Notes under the pieces: model-generated
Told to the model about the DNA's origin: nothing
Seen by the model: only the letters and a program-made list of their open reading frames with translations
Database searches by the model: none
NCBI GenBank assembly: GCA_027364845.1
Contig: DAHXOO010000018.1
Coordinates: forward strand, 1 to 53,999
From: Pseudomonadota bacterium
GTDB lineage: Bacteria > Pseudomonadota > Gammaproteobacteria > Acidiferrobacterales > UBA6901
Direction of reading: 5' to 3'
Length of the DNA: 53,999 nucleotides
Program-made: the position numbers and the translations under genes
In this document: piece after piece, positions 3,482 through 44,226 of the stretch
Layout: every line of letters begins with the position of its first letter
How positions within the stretch are numbered: position 1 is the first letter of the stretch

Positions 3482-4860
3482 AGAAATATGCGCATGTTGA
3501 ATGCAACAATCAGCAACCAGGCGGGTACAGCCAGCCGCGTCAGCCACAGCCAGGCATCGTAGGTGCAGCGCGAGCGCACTGCCAATGCTTCGCGTGTCAT
3601 CGCCGTTGACAGCACCCACACCGAAAACACTGCCGACAGAACCCCGATCACCGGCATTATGAAGCTGGAGGTCAGAATCTGCAGGACATCGAACAGCCCG
3701 AACGTTTCAGTGAGACCCAGCAGACGAAAGGAGAACTTCCACTCGCTGAAAGACAATATCGTGATGATCCCGAGAAGCCAGGCACAGATACCGCTGACCA
3801 TACTCGCCCGGAGTCTGGTCATGCCCCGACTCTCGATGAGCCAGGTGACAGCCGACTCGGCCAGCGCAACGCTCGACATCCAGGCTACCAGGGCCAGGAA
3901 TATGAAAAACACTGCCTGCATCAGACCGCCCAGAGGCAACACATCGAACGAAACAGGCAACGCGCGGAACACCAGCGCCGGTCCTTGCGTCGGCGTCCCA
4001 CCGGCAGCATAGAGCACCGGCAAGATGACCATGCCGGCCGTGACGGCGGCGGCGATGTCGACCAGTACCACGATTGTCGCCGCACGCACGATCGAGGTAT
4101 GGCTCGGCAGGTACGCTCCGTACATCATCATGACTCCGGCGCCGAGGCCCAGACTGAAAAAGGCATCGCCGAGGGCGGTAAGTATTCCCCGTCCGGACAG
4201 CTTAAGAAAATCCGGCGTGACAAAAAAGGCCACGGTGTGCACAATATCGCCGGTAATTGCCGCGTAGACGGCGAGCAGCACCAGCAGACCGAGCAGCGCC
4301 GGCACGACGAATCTGGTCACTGCTTCGAGCCCGTGGCGCACGCCGCGCGCCACGACTGTCATAGTCATCACCATAAACAGGCTATGCCAGAACAGCTGCC
4401 TCTCGGGATCACTGACGAAAGCGGAGAATTCGCTAGCCGCGGTGTCAGCGCTGAGATTTCCCAACAAGCCTCCTACCGAGCGCGCGACGTAGGCGAGTAG
4501 CCACCCGGCGATGACGCTGTACCAGGACAGGATCAACAGCCCCACTACCGCGATCAGCACACCCAGCGACAACCAAACGTGGGAACGCCGCGTGCGTCGA
4601 ACTAGATCGCGCATGGCATTGACCGGCGACAGGCGTCCGAGCCGTCCCAACATCAGCTGCGCAACGAGAAGTGGCAACCCAAGCATGAACATAAAAATGA
4701 CGTAAACAGTAATGAAAGCGCCGCCGCCGTATTGAACGACGTGGTAGGGAAACTGCCAGATATTGTTGAGACTGACGGTAAACCCGGATGCGGCAAGGAC
4801 GAACCTTTCGGACGAAGACCATAGGCCGTGCACGGATCTTGCCGTTTTTATTCTTGCCAT
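3478..4860 (-). CDS. Sodium-dependent NSS/SLC6-family transporter with altered substrate site
   Basis: A 460-residue membrane protein with about 11-12 hydrophobic segments, of the neurotransmitter:sodium symporter (LeuT/SLC6) family. The first helix aligns to LeuT through GFTVSLNNIWQFPY (residues 26-39) and the following GGGAF. Compared with LeuT, the unwound GLG that holds the amino-acid carboxylate reads S30-L31-N32, and the external-gate arginine R30 of LeuT is Q36 here. The sodium-site Asn is kept as N33. The substrate is therefore unlikely to be a standard amino acid, or transport may be altered; this is inference. It heads a minus-strand unit with ratA and ratB and is divergent from smpB. 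Confidence 0.85.
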   Translation of the reverse strand: MARIKTARSVHGLWSSSERFVLAASGFTVSLNNIWQFPYHVVQYGGGAFITVYVIFMFMLGLPLLVAQLMLGRLGRLSPVNAMRDLVRRTRRSHVWLSLGVLIAVVGLLILSWYSVIAGWLLAYVARSVGGLLGNLSADTAASEFSAFVSDPERQLFWHSLFMVMTMTVVARGVRHGLEAVTRFVVPALLGLLVLLAVYAAITGDIVHTVAFFVTPDFLKLSGRGILTALGDAFFSLGLGAGVMMMYGAYLPSHTSIVRAATIVVLVDIAAAVTAGMVILPVLYAAGGTPTQGPALVFRALPVSFDVLPLGGLMQAVFFIFLALVAWMSSVALAESAVTWLIESRGMTRLRASMVSGICAWLLGIITILSFSEWKFSFRLLGLTETFGLFDVLQILTSSFIMPVIGVLSAVFSVWVLSTAMTREALAVRSRCTYDAWLWLTRLAVPAWLLIVAFNMRIFL

Positions 4861-6066: not shown

Positions 6067-7275
6067 ATGCTGACTGATACCGAAATTCGTGCTGCCAAAC
6101 CGCGCCAGAAGGCCGCCAAGCTGTTTGACGAGCGCGGGCTGTATCTGGAAGTCACCCCAACCGGAGGCAAGTGGTGGCGGCTCAAGTACCGATTCAGCGG
6201 CAAAGAAAAGCGGCTATCCCTTGGCGTCTATCCCGACGTGAGCCTGAAGGACGCCCGCGCCCGTCGCGATGCTGCGCGCAAGCTGGTGGCTGATGGCATC
6301 GACCCCAGCGAGAACCGCAAGGCGCAGGCGATAGCGAAACAAGATCGAGCTGCAAACAGTTTCGAGGTCGTGGCCCGTGAGTGGTACGCGAAGCACGCAC
6401 CCAACTGGGCGGAGCATCACGGCGACCGCATCATCCGGCGCTTTGAGCGCGACATCTTCCCTTGGATAGGCGGCAAGCCCATTGCCGACGTGGCCGCTCC
6501 CGAACTGCTGGCCGTAGTGCGCCGCATCGAAAGCCGGGGCGCGCTGGAAACCGCCCACCGCGCCTTGGGCAACTGTGGGCAAGTGTTCCGGTACGCGGTC
6601 GCCACCGGCCGCGCCGAGCGCGACCCGACCAGCGATCTACGCGGCGCGCTGCCGCCGGTAAAAGGCGAACACTTCGCAGCGACCACAGAACCGAAACTGG
6701 TTGCCGAAATCCTGCGGGCGATGGATGGCTATGAAGGCACGCTCACTGTTCGCTGCGCCCTGCGCCTTGCCCCATTGGTCTTCGTGCGCCCCGGCGAACT
6801 GCGCAAGGCCGAATGGGCCGACATCGACCTGGACGCGGCGGAATGGCGCTACACCGTCACCAAGACCAACACGCCGCACATCGTTCCCCTTTCTCGGCAA
6901 GCCGTGGAAATTCTGCGCGAACTGCAACCGCTCACCGGACGCCGGCAATTCGTCTTTTCTGGGGCACGCAGCAACGGGCGACCGATGAGTGATAACGCAA
7001 TTCTCGCCGCCATGCGGCGCATGAGCATCGGCAAAGAAGAAATGAGCACACACGGCTTCCGTGCCGTGGCGCGAACCATCCTCGACGAAGTGCTGGGCGT
7101 GCGTCCCGATTACATCGAACACCAGCTTGCCCACGCCGTGCGCGATCCGAACGGGCGCGCCTACAACCGCACCGCTCACCTGCCCGAGCGGCGCAAGATG
7201 ATGCAGCAATGGGCTGACTACCTTGACAAGCTCAAATCCGGGGCCGAAGTGATCCCGCTGCCGCAACGCGCCTAA
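6067..7275 (+). CDS. Tyrosine-type site-specific integrase (P4-like)
   Basis: A full-length 402-residue integrase of the P4/DUF4102 type. Residues 1-95 form the arm-DNA-binding domain (LTDTEIRAAKPRQKAAKLFD and LSLGVYPDVSLKDARARR). A core-binding domain follows at about 100-185, and the catalytic domain carries R241 (RPGELR), K266, H329 and R332 (HGFRAVAR), H356 (QLAHA) and tyrosine Y366 (AYNRT). All catalytic residues are present. It lies 166 bases after the intact tmRNA 3' end and reads away from it, so ssrA is the likely attachment site. No Shine-Dalgarno is seen before the ATG; an inverted copy of the arm repeat is there instead. No second att copy was found on the right. Confidence 0.92.
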   Translation: MLTDTEIRAAKPRQKAAKLFDERGLYLEVTPTGGKWWRLKYRFSGKEKRLSLGVYPDVSLKDARARRDAARKLVADGIDPSENRKAQAIAKQDRAANSFEVVAREWYAKHAPNWAEHHGDRIIRRFERDIFPWIGGKPIADVAAPELLAVVRRIESRGALETAHRALGNCGQVFRYAVATGRAERDPTSDLRGALPPVKGEHFAATTEPKLVAEILRAMDGYEGTLTVRCALRLAPLVFVRPGELRKAEWADIDLDAAEWRYTVTKTNTPHIVPLSRQAVEILRELQPLTGRRQFVFSGARSNGRPMSDNAILAAMRRMSIGKEEMSTHGFRAVARTILDEVLGVRPDYIEHQLAHAVRDPNGRAYNRTAHLPERRKMMQQWADYLDKLKSGAEVIPLPQRA

Positions 7276-7288
7276 CTGCTTTCAGGGA

Positions 7289-7350
7289 GCCCCTTCGGGG
7301 CGGACGGGAAGCGAGGCGCGAGCACGGAGAGCGGAAGCCGCGTAGCGGCT
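7289..7350 (+). terminator. Two hairpins after the integrase gene
   Basis: GCCCC/GGGGC with loop TTC at 7289-7301 and AGCCGC/GCGGCT with loop GTA at 7336-7350. Neither has a T-run. They are the only structure in the 118 bases between the integrase and the insertion sequence and could end integrase transcription weakly. Confidence 0.3.
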
Positions 7351-7393
7351 GAAGCCCCACGCGCAGCGACACGCTGGGCGGGCGGCACCGAAC

Positions 7394-7417
7394 CTTAGGC
7401 AGTGTTAATAAATAAAC
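7394..7417 (+). repeat. IS left terminal inverted repeat
   Basis: CTTAGGC, three spacer bases, then GTTAATAAATAAAC; mirrored at 8666-8689. Confidence 0.8.
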
Positions 7418-7424
7418 ATGTCAA

Positions 7425-8627
7425 CTATGTGAGTCTCGGTTTAATGACGTAGTTCCATTCGCCATGGAAGTGGTTCGGCTTCAGGTTGATGAGCTTCATC
7501 TCTTCATCGCTCACCTTGCGTCCCGTTGGATACTTCCGATGATCCAATCGACAGGTGACCTTCAACCCCTTGGCCGTTGTGGTCCGGGCGATCAGGTTCA
7601 CAATGGTCTCATAGTCGCGCAGCGGCTCACCGCGCCAGTTCGACGAGATGAAGGAGAACAGCCGGTGCTCGATTTTGTTCCATTTGCTGGTGCCCGGGGG
7701 AAAGTGGCATACCGCAACGTGCAATCCCGTCTCGTCGGCGAACTTCTGCAGCTCCAACTTCCATAGGCGTAGCCGCCAGCCGTTGCTCCCACCCCCGTCG
7801 GCCGTGATCAGAATCCGCTTCGCCTTGGCATAGATGCGCTTGCCCTCCGAGCGCCACCAGCCACGGATGGAGGCGACGGCGAAAGCTCCGGTATCGTGGT
7901 CGGTGCCCACGTTGACGAATCCGGCATTGCGTCCAATGTCGTAGATACCGTATGGATAGGCACGCGGTACATCCGGTCCGGGGAAGTCGTGACCCTGCAC
8001 GGGGATCGGCTCTTTCCGCGGCAGCCATTGCCGGCCCTTGTTTTCGTAGTTCCCGATGAGTTCCTTCTTCTTGGTATCCACCGAGATCACGGGAACCGCC
8101 TGTCTGAGTGCCGCCTTGACCTGGGCGCTGAGGTAGCGAAATTGTGCATCGCGGTCCGGATGATCCGCGCCCTCCTCAGTCTTGCGGTTGCTCTGCAAGC
8201 TGTAGTGTTGATCGTGCAGGATCTGCGCAACCTTCACATGGCTCAGAGGATGCTGTTGTTGCTCAAGCTCCCGAGCAATCGCGCGCGTGCTCTTGCAGAT
8301 CCATCGCAGCGGAGATTCCGGATCCCCCCGCGTGCCTCCCTCGATCATCGCATCCAGCGCCTCCACGAGCTTCGGATCGGTGGCCACGATCGACTTGCGA
8401 CCCGCCCCCGATCGGCGCATGCGGCCAGTCAGCACTTTCCCGTCCTTGATCTCCCGAATTCCGCGAGTGATGGCCTGGCGCGACAATCCACAGGCGCGAT
8501 GAACCAGAGAAACACCCCCAAATCCCAAGCTCATCGCTTCATTCGCCGCAGTGATACGACGGGTCCGTTCATCTAGATGAGGCCAGATGGAACGGAACTT
8601 CCGCGTCAACTCTGCCAGCTCGCTCAT
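7425..8627 (-). CDS. ISAzo13-family DDE transposase
   Basis: A 400-residue transposase resembling the ISAzo13 family. The N-terminal part (about 1-80) has helix-turn-helix character (GVSLVHRACGLSRQAITRGI). The DDE triad is probably D184 (SVDTKKKE), D277 (ITADGGGSNGWRLRLWK) and E320 (GTSKWNKIEHRLFS), all in the contexts usual for this family. The frame is intact, so the element may be active. It lies wholly between the terminal repeats, with its stop codon only 8 bases inside the perfect left repeat, and it faces away from diaA toward the integrase. Confidence 0.9.
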   Translation of the reverse strand: MSELAELTRKFRSIWPHLDERTRRITAANEAMSLGFGGVSLVHRACGLSRQAITRGIREIKDGKVLTGRMRRSGAGRKSIVATDPKLVEALDAMIEGGTRGDPESPLRWICKSTRAIARELEQQQHPLSHVKVAQILHDQHYSLQSNRKTEEGADHPDRDAQFRYLSAQVKAALRQAVPVISVDTKKKELIGNYENKGRQWLPRKEPIPVQGHDFPGPDVPRAYPYGIYDIGRNAGFVNVGTDHDTGAFAVASIRGWWRSEGKRIYAKAKRILITADGGGSNGWRLRLWKLELQKFADETGLHVAVCHFPPGTSKWNKIEHRLFSFISSNWRGEPLRDYETIVNLIARTTTAKGLKVTCRLDHRKYPTGRKVSDEEMKLINLKPNHFHGEWNYVIKPRLT

Positions 8628-8665
8628 ACCGGGCGAGCATAACAGATTGATTCACAGAATGTTAC

Positions 8666-8689
8666 GTTTATTTATTAACGAAGCCTAAG
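8666..8689 (-). repeat. IS right terminal inverted repeat
   Basis: GTTTATTTATTAAC, three spacer bases, then GCCTAAG; complement of the left end. The stop codon of the truncated diaA frame falls inside it. Confidence 0.8.
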
Positions 8690-8989
8690 TGCGATGGCTG
8701 GCAGGCCGGGTCGTTCGTACGTGTAGCGGTTCAGCAGGTGTGAGGAAAAAAGCTGGGCGCAGGCGGCGGAGCCGCCGTTGCCGCACAGCAGAATCTTACG
8801 ACCTGACACCAGCGCCTTGACCATCATCATCGCCACTGCGACGATCAGAGGGGTAAGTGGTTCAAGGGAGCTCTCCACGAGTTCAATATTGTGCGCGAAT
8901 GCGGCCCGCACGCGGCTCTGCAGGTCGTCCGTGGTCGCATTGCGCTTGGTTCGTCCGGTTGTGGTGGCGGCTTTGCGGTTTTGTTTCAT
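8690..8989 (-). pseudogene. diaA: DiaA/GmhA-type SIS-domain protein, 5' fragment cut by IS
   Basis: The first 100 codons of a SIS-domain protein of the DiaA/phosphoheptose-isomerase group; DiaA binds DnaA and promotes timely replication initiation in E. coli. Recognisable parts are [20 protein letters not shown], the sugar-binding [17 protein letters not shown], and [16 protein letters not shown] complete protein is about 195 residues; here the frame meets the insertion sequence after PAIA and reads only four more codons (LRLR) before stopping in the inverted repeat. The Ser/Thr-rich second half of the SIS fold is missing, so the product should be inactive. The 3' half is not found elsewhere in the window. 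Position downstream of lpoA on the same strand supports diaA rather than gmhA. Confidence 0.85.
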
Positions 8990-9092
8990 TGAAGCGTTCT
9001 AGCAGGAAATTCCAGGACCTTGAGCACCGTGGCGGATTTCCGAGCCATAAGTCAGCGACGCGTGCCGGTTTTGCGGAGTCTGAGCCATACCT

Positions 9093-11042
9093 TCATTGTG
9101 CCGGGATCGACGGCGAATCGATTTCGGCGCCATCATCCAAGGCGAATTGTCCCTTGTAATTGAGAAAGGTATCCAGGAGTTGAGGAACGCCTTTCTGGAA
9201 TTGCGCCCAGAGAAGCTGGCGGTGGAACCGTCCATGAGGGCCGATACTCAGGCTGCTGGTTACGCCATCGAAGTGCACCCCCTGTTCTGTGCTGAGACGA
9301 TTCAGTTGCGGGATGACTGCATAGGAGTCGACGCCGAGTGCATAGAGCCTGTCGAGGGCGGTGTGCGCGTATTTCCAGTTGCCGTGCTGCAGCTGGGTGC
9401 GCAATGCCTTGATGCTGCCGTCATGAATCAGCATCCACGGCATGTCACCAAACATGATTCCATCGAGATCGGCATCACGTATGGGGTCCATGTTCCCGGT
9501 GAATATGTGCGAGGTTGCGTATACTGGAATCTGCATCGCACGATAATAATTGAGCTGCGGTTTTATCAAGCGGCCGTTCTGCGCGTCGGCGGCGAGGAAA
9601 ATCATGTCGATGTCCTTGCGTGGCCTGGGGTCAAATTTTAACTTAATCTTCAGCAGCTTCTGCAGACGATCTTCACGCTCGTCGCTTTGGGTGATATTGA
9701 GCAGTTGTTTCACTGGCTGCGAGTAGTCGCCCATCCCGGGCTGATAGGCTACCGATGTCAGCACGATGCCTCCGAGCCGCTGCCAAGCGTTGCTGAATCC
9801 GCTTGCTATGCGCTGCCCCCATGCGGTATCGGGATACAGAATGGCCGCACGCCTATGACCGTCGAGGTAGGCGCGCTCTGCTACTTGCTTGGCCTCTTGC
9901 TCCAGTGGCAGGCCAAACTGGAATACCTGTCGAGATGGGTCAATCTTCTGGTTGGTCCGGCTCAGAAGCAGGGTCGGCACTCGAAGGTCGTCGGCCTTGA
10001 CCAGCTGTCTGACGGCGTCGTGACCCAGTGGACCGACCACCAGCTGGGCCCCGTTTGCTACCGCAGTATCGTAGTATTTCGTTATCTGCGTGGAATCCGC
10101 CCCGGTGTCGTAGACCATGATCGTCGGCTTGTCGGGATCGATGTTGGCTGCATCCATGGCCATGAAGCCATCCTTAACGGCAGCCGCCTGGGTCGAAAAC
10201 CCCGATGTCAGCGGCAGGAGCAGCGCGATTCTGTTGATGCGCCCTATGATGCCGGGAACCGGGCTCGCCAGCGATCTGATGAAACTGGGGGTCGCAGGAT
10301 GTCCGGGGTGGGATTTTTGCCAGACATCGACAGCCATGGCGAGCTGGTTCGGGTCGCCTGCGTTTTCGGCGACTGCGATCGCGAGCTGCAGCCAGCCGAC
10401 AAGAACAGGATTGCGCGCGCTGGACAACGCGAGTTTCAGGTTGGCTCGGCTTAGGGTCTGCAGGATATGCCAGAGCTGCTGTTGGTTCGCTGTAATTTCG
10501 TTGCTATTTACGATGAATCGCTCGCGTGCGATAAGGTCAATGACTGCGTCGATCGGACGGTTGACTTTGATCTCCGTCCGAGCGCGGGCCTGGAGAATTT
10601 CTGCCTGTAGCGAAGGGTCGAGATTGCGCATCCGCGCCGCTAGGTCGAGCAGGGAGATGGAACGCCGGGGGTGTCCTTCAAGTGAGGCGATGCGCGCCTC
10701 CAGAATGCGCTTGCGTGCGAGGAAGGAAGGAGCCAGTCCTGCGGTATCTATGGAGCGGATCTGCTCGCGCGCCTCGCGCACCTGCGCCGCCTTGACGAGC
10801 GCACCCACCGCGTCAAGCTGGAAGCGTTGCCGCTGAGGCGGGCTCGCGAGCTGCGCAAGTTGCTTGTAGTCATGTGCGGCAAGAACGTATTCGCCGGCCC
10901 GCTCAGCATGTTCGGCATCTGCTGCGTTGATTCGCGGCGCGGTGGGCCGCAGCGGCGGTCGGGTCACGCATCCTTGAAGTGCCAGAAAGCCGGCGAGGGC
11001 GAACAACGTTGCCCAGACACGAGCGGTGAAAATCGGTTTCAT
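9093..11042 (-). CDS. lpoA: Penicillin-binding protein activator lipoprotein LpoA
   Basis: LpoA is an outer-membrane lipoprotein that reaches through the periplasm to activate the class A synthase PBP1A. The 649-residue product starts with MKPIFTARVWATLF and has a lipobox ending LQG-C25. An N-terminal helical TPR-like half (about 40-250) is followed by a periplasmic-binding-protein-like half from about 260 (IALLLPLTSGFSTQAAAVKDG, VVGPLGHDAVRQL, DIDMIFLAADAQNGRLIKPQ). A more upstream start at 11093 is possible but would spoil the signal peptide. It is divergent from rsmI with 51 bases between starts. The usual downstream neighbour yraN is not present; diaA follows after 103 bases. Confidence 0.93.
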   Translation of the reverse strand: MKPIFTARVWATLFALAGFLALQGCVTRPPLRPTAPRINAADAEHAERAGEYVLAAHDYKQLAQLASPPQRQRFQLDAVGALVKAAQVREAREQIRSIDTAGLAPSFLARKRILEARIASLEGHPRRSISLLDLAARMRNLDPSLQAEILQARARTEIKVNRPIDAVIDLIARERFIVNSNEITANQQQLWHILQTLSRANLKLALSSARNPVLVGWLQLAIAVAENAGDPNQLAMAVDVWQKSHPGHPATPSFIRSLASPVPGIIGRINRIALLLPLTSGFSTQAAAVKDGFMAMDAANIDPDKPTIMVYDTGADSTQITKYYDTAVANGAQLVVGPLGHDAVRQLVKADDLRVPTLLLSRTNQKIDPSRQVFQFGLPLEQEAKQVAERAYLDGHRRAAILYPDTAWGQRIASGFSNAWQRLGGIVLTSVAYQPGMGDYSQPVKQLLNITQSDEREDRLQKLLKIKLKFDPRPRKDIDMIFLAADAQNGRLIKPQLNYYRAMQIPVYATSHIFTGNMDPIRDADLDGIMFGDMPWMLIHDGSIKALRTQLQHGNWKYAHTALDRLYALGVDSYAVIPQLNRLSTEQGVHFDGVTSSLSIGPHGRFHRQLLWAQFQKGVPQLLDTFLNYKGQFALDDGAEIDSPSIPAQ

Positions 11043-41862: not shown

Positions 41863-41892
41863 TTGACAGATTTGCTAGGAAAAACTTAGACT
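41863..41892 (+). promoter_or_regulatory. Candidate promoter of the rubrerythrin cluster
   Basis: Perfect -35 TTGACA at 41863-41868, 18-base spacer and TTAGAC at 41887-41892 (TAGACT one base on is an alternative). Transcription would start near 41899, at the foot of the leader hairpin. Confidence 0.55.
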
Positions 41893-41899
41893 GATTCTA

Positions 41900-41926
41900 A
41901 ATAAGCGGTCTCGCTTATTTTCTTTA
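41900..41926 (+). promoter_or_regulatory. Leader hairpin with T-rich tail before the rubrerythrin gene
   Basis: A perfect 9-bp stem AAATAAGCG/CGCTTATTT with loop GTCT (41900-41921), followed by TCTTT. If transcription starts near 41899 the hairpin forms the very 5' end of the message and may protect it; as a terminator it would act as an attenuator. GGAG at 41942-41945 lies 8 bases before the ATG. Confidence 0.5.
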
Positions 41927-41953
41927 AGAATCTGACAACATGGAGACCTGAAC

Positions 41954-42376
41954 ATGAAAAGCTTGAAAGGCAGCAAGACCCACGAGAACCTCAAGTACGC
42001 TTTTGCCGGAGAATCCCAGGCCAACCGCCGCTACCTGTATTTCGCCTCCAAGGCGGATGTGGAGGGCTTCAATGATGTTTCGGCAGTATTCCGCTCGACC
42101 GCCGAAGGCGAAACTGGTCATGCACACGGGCACCTCGAGTACATGGAAGCTGTAGGCGATCCGGCTACCGACCTTCCAATCGGAAGCACCAGCGACAATC
42201 TGAAATCCGCCATTGCGGGCGAGACTCACGAGTATACGGATATGTATCCCGGCATGGCGAAAGCCGCGCGCGAAGAGGGGTTTAGCGAAATTGCGGACTG
42301 GTTCGAGACTTTGGCCAAAGCCGAACGCTCACATGCCAACCGGTTTCAGAAGGCCCTCGATAGCCTCGGCAAGTAA
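41954..42376 (+). CDS. Rubrerythrin without rubredoxin domain
   Basis: A 140-residue di-iron protein of the rubrerythrin family, which reduces peroxide. Two ferritin-like helix pairs supply the ligands: E20 ([15 protein letters not shown]), E53 and H56 ([10 protein letters not shown]), E90 and E93 ([11 protein letters not shown]), E124 and H127 ([10 protein letters not shown]). The C-terminal rubredoxin domain of classical rubrerythrin is absent, so electrons must come from a separate partner; the Fe-S protein encoded next is a candidate. First gene of a four-gene plus-strand set. A strong promoter and leader hairpin precede it. Confidence 0.92.
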
Positions 42377-42505: not shown

Positions 42506-43852
42506 ATGGCTGTAACCTCTCACGGTAGCCACGAAGGGGGAGTTGAAGCGCCGATGCGCCATCCTCTGGATTGGAAGAATCCGCAATTCAATGACGAGAC
42601 CGTTCTGATCAAGGAAATGGAACGTGTCTTCGACATCTGCCATGGTTGCCGCCGTTGTTTCAGCTTGTGTCAGGCATTTCCGACGCTGTTCGATGCCATC
42701 GATGCTTCCGAGACGCTGGAGCTGGATGGCGTGCCGAAGTCCATTTTTTGGCAGGTGGTGGACCACTGTTATCTGTGCGACATGTGCTACATGACCAAGT
42801 GTCCTTACGTGCCGCCGCATCCGTGGAACTTGGACTTTCCCCATCTGATGTTGCGCGCCAAGGCGGTAAAATACCGCAAAGGCGAAACCAAGGTGCGCGA
42901 CCGCATCCTAACGAGTACAGATACCGTCGGGCGTCTGGCCGGCTTTCCCATGGTCGTGCAGTTCGTCAACGCCGCGAATCGAAACAAGTTGTTCCGCAAG
43001 GCGCTCGACAAAACTATGCATGTCCATCCGCATGCATCAGTGCCGGAGTATCACAGCGACACCTTCCTCAAGCAATGGCGCGACGACGGTGCCACTGCAT
43101 CGCAGGCTCAGCCCACCAGCACCACACGCGGGCGCGTGGCGCTGTTTGCAACCTGTTACGGCAATTACAACGAGCCGCAGCTGAACGACGACCTGGTTGC
43201 GGTGTTTCGCCACAACGGCATTCCGGTCACTGTTGCCGAGAAGGAGCGCTGCTGCGGCATGCCCAAGCTTGAGCTTGGAGACCTCGACGCGGTGGAACGT
43301 GCCAAACAGGCCAACATTCCGGTGTTGGCGCGCTTGGTGGACGAGGGATGGGATATTGTCGCACCCGTGCCTTCCTGCGTGCTGATGTTCAAGCAGGAGC
43401 TGCCTTTGATGTTTCCGGATGATCCGGATGTCGCCAAGGTGCAGGCCGCGATCTTCGATCCGTTCGAGTACCTGATGCTGCGCCACAAGGACGGCAAGCT
43501 GCGCACCGATTTCAAGCATTCGCTAGGCAGGGTCTCTTATCATGTTGCCTGTCATCTGCGGGTGCAGAATATCGGCATGAAGACGCGCGAACTTTTGCAG
43601 CTGGTGCCACAGACAGAGGTCGAGGCGATTGAGCGCTGCTCGGGCCATAATGGAACTTATGCGGTCAAGAGTGAGTTCCATGAAAGTTCGATGAAGATCG
43701 CTGGGCCGGTCGTCGATCGCGTGCGGCAGGCGGCAGCGGATCATTACAGTAGCGACTGTCCCATGGCGGGGCATCAGATCGAAAACGGCCTGGCCTCCGG
43801 GAAGGCACCGGAACACCCGCTGTCCTTGCTGCGCGCAGCTTATGGGATCTGA
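42506..43852 (+). CDS. CCG-domain iron-sulfur protein (GlpC/HdrD-like)
   Basis: A 448-residue protein with two ferredoxin-type cysteine clusters, C45-C48-C51-C55 and C88-C91-C94-C99, then two cysteine-rich CCG domains. The first CCG domain has C217, C249-C250 (ERCCGMP) and C291; the second has C349 and a variant CSG (378-380, ERCSGHNGTY) in place of CCG, with a later cysteine in SSDCPMA. It resembles heterodisulfide reductase subunit D and GlpC and probably transfers electrons, perhaps to the neighbouring rubrerythrin. The substrate is unknown. It commonly neighbours rubrerythrin and DUF3501 genes in proteobacteria. Confidence 0.88.
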   Translation: MAVTSHGSHEGGVEAPMRHPLDWKNPQFNDETVLIKEMERVFDICHGCRRCFSLCQAFPTLFDAIDASETLELDGVPKSIFWQVVDHCYLCDMCYMTKCPYVPPHPWNLDFPHLMLRAKAVKYRKGETKVRDRILTSTDTVGRLAGFPMVVQFVNAANRNKLFRKALDKTMHVHPHASVPEYHSDTFLKQWRDDGATASQAQPTSTTRGRVALFATCYGNYNEPQLNDDLVAVFRHNGIPVTVAEKERCCGMPKLELGDLDAVERAKQANIPVLARLVDEGWDIVAPVPSCVLMFKQELPLMFPDDPDVAKVQAAIFDPFEYLMLRHKDGKLRTDFKHSLGRVSYHVACHLRVQNIGMKTRELLQLVPQTEVEAIERCSGHNGTYAVKSEFHESSMKIAGPVVDRVRQAAADHYSSDCPMAGHQIENGLASGKAPEHPLSLLRAAYGI

Positions 43853-43926: not shown

Positions 43927-44226
43927 ATGGCAAGCGATGGCTACCACGAAACCGAATTGCGTGAGGAAACCCGGGACATGCATCGGGCGATCGTTTCCCT
44001 GATGGAGGAACTGGAAGCCGTCGACTGGTACAACCAGCGTGTTGATGCGTGCAAGGACAAGGAGCTGCGGGCGATACTCGCGCACAATCGTGACGAGGAG
44101 AAGGAGCATGCAGCCATGGTTCTGGAGTGGATCCGCCGGCACGATCCGGCCTTTGACAAAGAGCTTCATGACTACGTCTTCACAGAAAAGCCCATTGTTG
44201 CCCTGGAAGGAAAGCACAAGTCGTAA
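43927..44226 (+). CDS. Encapsulated-ferritin-like (EncFtn) protein lacking cargo tail
   Basis: A 99-residue, two-helix ferritin-like protein. It closely resembles, as I recall it, Rhodospirillum rubrum EncFtn, an iron-oxidising protein normally packed inside an encapsulin shell. The core motif spans SLMEELEAVDWYNQRVDA and ILAHNRDEEKEHAAM. The ferroxidase residues E32, E62 and H65 and tryptophan W38 of the R. rubrum protein correspond to E28, E58, H61 and W34 here. The chain ends shortly after FTEKPIVALEG, without the C-terminal encapsulation peptide, and no encapsulin gene lies nearby. GAGGA ends 6 bases before ATG 43927. It sits between the CCG protein and DUF3501 genes. Role as a free ferroxidase is inference. 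Confidence 0.85.
   Translation: MASDGYHETELREETRDMHRAIVSLMEELEAVDWYNQRVDACKDKELRAILAHNRDEEKEHAAMVLEWIRRHDPAFDKELHDYVFTEKPIVALEGKHKS

Follow-up and report, generated by a model that had tools for sequence, protein, structure and literature searches.

We analyzed a 53,999-nucleotide stretch of DNA from a member of the Pseudomonadota, referred to here as the window. Within it, four genes lie on the forward strand in the order rubrerythrin, RFO, EncFtn and DUF3501, so that the EncFtn gene is the third of the four (Table 1). The RFO gene ends 74 bp before EncFtn, and the DUF3501 gene starts 12 bp past the EncFtn stop codon, in agreement with the initial annotation, which had named DUF3501 as the gene that follows. 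As read in the window, the EncFtn open reading frame is intact from its ATG to its TAA codon, and a plausible ribosome-binding site (GAGG) is situated just 5′ of the start codon. Model NF045767 matched the rubrerythrin only over positions 1 to 144 of 194, and the RFO protein scored below the cut-off of the GlpC models. In the region from 41863 to 41940, ahead of the rubrerythrin gene, the TTGACA box is followed downstream by an AT-rich, partly dyad stretch (ATTCTAAATAAG); it is common to two congeners and could be an operator.

Table 1. Features of the rubrerythrin-RFO-EncFtn-DUF3501 locus, in window coordinates
Feature	Position	Strand	Basis
Putative promoter TTGACA-18-TAGACT, upstream of operon	41863..41892	+	Consensus match; roughly conserved in two congeners
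Aerobic-type rubrerythrin, 140 aa, without rubredoxin domain	41954..42376	+	PF02915, E=1.3e-31
RFO	42506..43852	+	PF02754, E=2.6e-14, in two stretches; RFO definition from PMC5114695
Tailless EncFtn (s-FLP), 99 aa	43927..44226	+	Complete ferroxidase center; no targeting peptide; profile matches
DUF3501 protein, 203 aa	44239..44850	+	PF12007, E=1.3e-70

The product of the third gene is almost certainly an EncFtn, as the initial annotation had proposed: it matched PF22277 (EncFtn-like) with an E value of 4.9e-42 and 142 bits (cut-off, 27) and TIGR04535 (encapsulin-associated ferritin-like protein) with 130.5 bits (cut-off, 125), both above the curated cut-offs. That annotation had also held that ferroxidase residues E28, E58 and H61 and residue W34 were kept, and all of them are present in the intact reading frame. 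E28, Y35, E58 and H61 correspond to E32, Y39, E62 and H65 of the Rhodospirillum rubrum protein and form a complete ferroxidase center, and the entry residues E27 and E30 and the exit residues H53, E57 and E60 are kept as well (R. rubrum numbering for these three groups of residues follows PMC5012862). W34 corresponds to R. rubrum W38, which was placed by alignment only. All ten positions (E27, E28, E30, W34, Y35, H53, E57, E58, E60 and H61) were invariant in an alignment of 123 rows.

The protein stops 8 residues past the conserved domain, and neither reading of its sequence nor a pattern search revealed a C-terminal targeting peptide, which bears out the earlier observation that it ends without an encapsulation peptide. 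The pattern [LF]x[VI]xx[LI] was likewise absent from the C terminus of all 119 tailless proteins tested. In having about 95 to 100 residues, no disordered tail and no apparent targeting peptide, the protein matches the tailless EncFtn proteins that a 2024 review named s-FLPs (PMC11202242); in the portion of that review concerned with their history, which cites Giessen and Silver 2017, s-FLPs are said to have first been classified as non-encapsulated. A search of genome contigs found tailless EncFtn encoded by at least 570 confirmed stretches in Proteobacteria, so the s-FLP class is large. The tailless EncFtn pointed out by the initial annotation is no surprise: the class is already described and common in Proteobacteria, and the best PDB match of the window protein, 3k6c (NE0167 of Nitrosomonas europaea; 95 residues), is tailless too. 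The class itself is therefore not new, and the window protein is one more s-FLP.

The genes around EncFtn belong to a known arrangement. A rubrerythrin-RFO-DUF3501 cluster has been described (PMC5114695), and in the window a rubredoxin-less rubrerythrin is co-located with RFO and DUF3501, as is characteristic of the aerobic rubrerythrin cluster. We considered DUF3501 as an odd stand-in for encapsulin and rejected the idea, since DUF3501 belongs to this known cluster. A predicted model of the DUF3501 protein (pLDDT, 90.7) matched the solved DUF3501 structure 3fjv with a Z score of 26.7; nothing convincing was found for it beyond 3fjv (Z of 6.5 or less), and the model gave no functional hint. 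EncFtn, encapsulin and ferritin-like protein are nowhere mentioned in the text of PMC5114695, and a limited search of the openly licensed literature found no description of the four-gene rubrerythrin/RFO/EncFtn/DUF3501 arrangement.

Coordinates placed EncFtn directly before DUF3501 in 26 of 60 relatives. Cultivable relatives that carry the operon include Thioalkalivibrio denitrificans (L041) and Sedimenticola selenatireducens (L093). The fetched set held 34 distinct operonic EncFtn proteins, while 85 of the 119 tailless ones were not seen beside DUF3501, a figure that is an upper bound for stand-alone genes because some of these loci were short. The only neighbors that recurred around tailless EncFtn were RFO, rubrerythrin and DUF3501; for the stand-alone forms, no conserved partner was found in more than 5 of 70 loci. 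The two kinds also differ at their C termini, the extra approximately 8 residues of the window protein being common to 25 of the 34 operonic forms, whereas stand-alone forms end in KPIAHx and 70 of the 85 reach 2 residues past the domain.

We built a tree from 127 EncFtn sequences trimmed to the domain. Most of its deep forks were weak because only 93 columns were available. The four tailed rows nevertheless formed one group (SH-aLRT, 88) with the window protein outside it, so that the separation of EncFtn with tails from EncFtn without them, on which the initial annotation had wanted a tree, places the window protein apart from the tailed rows. The operonic tailless forms, the window protein among them, clustered, requiring 9 changes versus 30 in shuffles. 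A distant EncFtn-like group (family f52, 84 to 86 bits) was also encountered at loci L131, L132 and L133 of genomes G130, G110 and G182, respectively; its members have an 11-residue tail without a targeting peptide, and G110 and G130 carry encapsulin, but on another contig or about 2 Mb from the EncFtn-like gene.

A second rubrerythrin-DUF3501 pair was found on contig C88 of the same genome (locus L142, C88:19000-33000, positions 6935 to 10780, minus strand). This pair adjoins a catalase gene and a gene for an OxyR-like LysR regulator, and its DUF3501 protein is 61% identical to that of the window; neither RFO nor EncFtn was seen in the C88 copy. H2O2 up-regulates rubrerythrin in Sulfolobus solfataricus, and the authors of that study singled out a glpC-like gene adjacent to the rubrerythrin gene (PMC2739297). 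By way of gene neighborhood only, these observations make it likely that EncFtn is part of a peroxide-stress operon.

The initial annotation had noted that no encapsulin lay beside EncFtn, and for classical encapsulin the same was seen in the genome at large, as a PF04454 search found no Linocin_M18 encapsulin in the 3.15-Mb, 96% complete assembly, with positive controls detected. A search of the same genome for family-2 encapsulin (PF19307) gave no match, but neither did its positive controls, and it was not counted as a negative. An encapsulin gene in the missing part of the assembly is conceivable, although the relatives also lack one. Among the 60 relatives, 39 had EncFtn, and encapsulin above 290 bits occurred only in two (G017 and G038), in both of which it adjoins an EncFtn ending in SLGIGSL. 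Two further EncFtn carriers (G051 and G058) contain fragments and were left out of the count of tailless forms; the EncFtn of every other relative whose C terminus was read was tailless (35 of 35), and none of these 35 relatives had a convincing encapsulin. The only PF04454 match among the 35, a weak one of 23.8 bits in G040, corresponded to no Pfam family on scanning and was discarded.

We also looked farther afield. Among 249 genomes sampled from the phylum, encapsulin was above the cut-off in 3; in G198, which has two encapsulins, one is adjoined by a tailed EncFtn. Encapsulin sequence was found in 3 of 50 further genomes reached via tailless EncFtn loci. In a Thiogranum genome (G357) and a Thiohalocapsa genome (G340), encapsulin adjoins a separate tailed EncFtn, and G315 carries a decayed locus (L162, positions 3935 to 4503, minus strand), in which a tailed-type EncFtn with in-frame stops is followed by a C-terminal encapsulin remnant, together with an intact tailless EncFtn elsewhere (L043). 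Thus, in genomes with both an encapsulin and a tailless EncFtn, the shell comes with a tailed cargo protein of its own. We conclude that tailless EncFtn, including that of the window, is very probably not encapsulin cargo and that the independence of the window protein from a shell is well supported.

What the protein would do without a shell can be approached through the R. rubrum protein. Purified R. rubrum EncFtn without its shell is an active ferroxidase, binds only 10 to 15 Fe in each decamer and precipitates when more iron is supplied (PMC5012862). This small capacity and the precipitation imply that something must accept the iron from a free form, and no such acceptor was found in this analysis. 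The view of the initial annotation that a free EncFtn would have to deal with Fe3+ in the absence of a shell is supported. With respect to other ferritins, the sole match to PF00210 in the genome was the window rubrerythrin; because this search missed the C88 rubrerythrin, which hmmscan matched, it does not prove the absence of ferritin, Bfr or Dps. Many EncFtn-carrying relatives have another ferritin-family protein, so the two are not mutually exclusive. Two congeners have another PF00210-type protein (G004, locus L158, positions 611 to 1444; G002, locus L159, positions 2 to 975) whose gene, as judged by eye, adjoins that for an apparent bacterial-microcompartment/carboxysome shell protein, and at L158 a ParA-like gene is also present beside it. 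This suggests that the PF00210-type protein of these congeners is a carboxysome-associated bacterioferritin-like protein.

Taken together, these results lead us to favor, with a probability of about 0.6, the interpretation that the window protein is a free cytosolic s-FLP ferroxidase that, under peroxide stress, clears Fe2+ able to drive Fenton chemistry. By analogy with the related crystal decamer 3k6c, EncFtn would most likely assemble in the cytosol into an open ring of ten subunits. Fe2+ would enter at E27 and E30 and be oxidized by O2 or H2O2 at the center formed by E28, E58 and H61, and iron would leave via H53, E57 and E60. Fenton-active Fe2+ would thereby be lowered while rubrerythrin, with electrons from RFO, destroys peroxide, and the resulting Fe3+ may stay bound in small quantity or be passed on to an acceptor. 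We infer the ferroxidase activity, the role in peroxide stress and the fate of Fe3+ from the protein and its setting; that EncFtn acts by oxidizing Fe2+ seems somewhat the better bet. More tentatively, and at slightly less than even odds, the tailless EncFtn might be a dedicated shell-free Fe2+-clearing partner of an aerobic rubrerythrin/RFO/DUF3501 peroxide-defense module, the four genes forming a unit without a storage compartment.

It is very improbable that the protein is still encapsulin cargo that docks via a short uncharacterized peptide, even though the 2024 review leaves open a hidden binding sequence in the short s-FLP C terminus, with LFTD(E/N)KPIAHE as the putative one (PMC11202242), and even though the type protein 3k6c is decameric like true cargo. 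The 35 relatives with verified tailless EncFtn would offer such a peptide no convincing encapsulin on which to dock, and encapsulin, where present, comes with a tailed EncFtn of its own, a pattern of genome content that argues against the hidden targeting peptide. Moreover, the conserved domain itself ends in LFTD(E/N)KPIAHE, and a related form occurs in tailed proteins (YLFIDKSV, YLFTEGQV) before their real tail.

Two other explanations dispense with the shell. A diiron oxidase or peroxidase that turned over with RFO electrons, its iron being a fixed cofactor as in rubrerythrin, would suit a gene placed between RFO and DUF3501, the unavailability of mineral storage without a shell and the few irons held by the decamer (PMC5012862); such a closed-cofactor enzyme would not, however, need the iron-flux entry and exit residues, all of which are kept and invariant, and we regard this explanation as unlikely. 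Less likely again is a role in sensing or buffering iron or redox state, in which partner proteins would respond to the Fe2+-dependent change of EncFtn from dimer to decamer. The operon contains no DNA-binding or signaling neighbor, and the full retention of catalytic residues would be left unexplained, so that, although EncFtn assembly is metal dependent (PMC5012862), the redox sensing entertained by the initial annotation received no specific support. We therefore retain the free ferroxidase as the preferred interpretation.

In the usual description, EncFtn depends on an encapsulin shell for iron storage. Most EncFtn in the Proteobacteria sampled here is encoded in genomes without encapsulin, implying that EncFtn of this group most commonly has a role outside a shell. 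The 2024 review had left it unsettled whether the short C termini conceal a targeting peptide; genome content thus answers that point, and the operon provides a concrete setting in which to study a ferroxidase that has no store. Our additions to what was known are two: the comparison of genomes speaks against a concealed targeting peptide, and the arrangement of four genes recurs.

Compared with the cluster of PMC5114695, the window has all three genes in order, including a rubrerythrin that lacks rubredoxin, but with EncFtn inserted between RFO and DUF3501. The window protein is 71% identical over 82 residues to Rru_A0973 of R. rubrum (5da5), with which it shares the full ferroxidase center and the entry and exit sites; Rru_A0973, in contrast, carries a targeting peptide at the end of a long tail and acts inside encapsulin (PMC5012862), neither of which applies to the window protein. 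The closest counterpart is NE0167, whose structure 3k6c is listed in the PDB with 10 chains and is described as a decamer (PMC11202242). The two proteins are 83% identical over 90 residues, have the same ferroxidase residues and lack both a long tail and a targeting peptide. They differ in that the 3k6c sequence has Leu where the window protein has W34, that the window protein has about 8 more C-terminal residues (VALEGKHKS-like) and that its gene sits inside a rubrerythrin operon.
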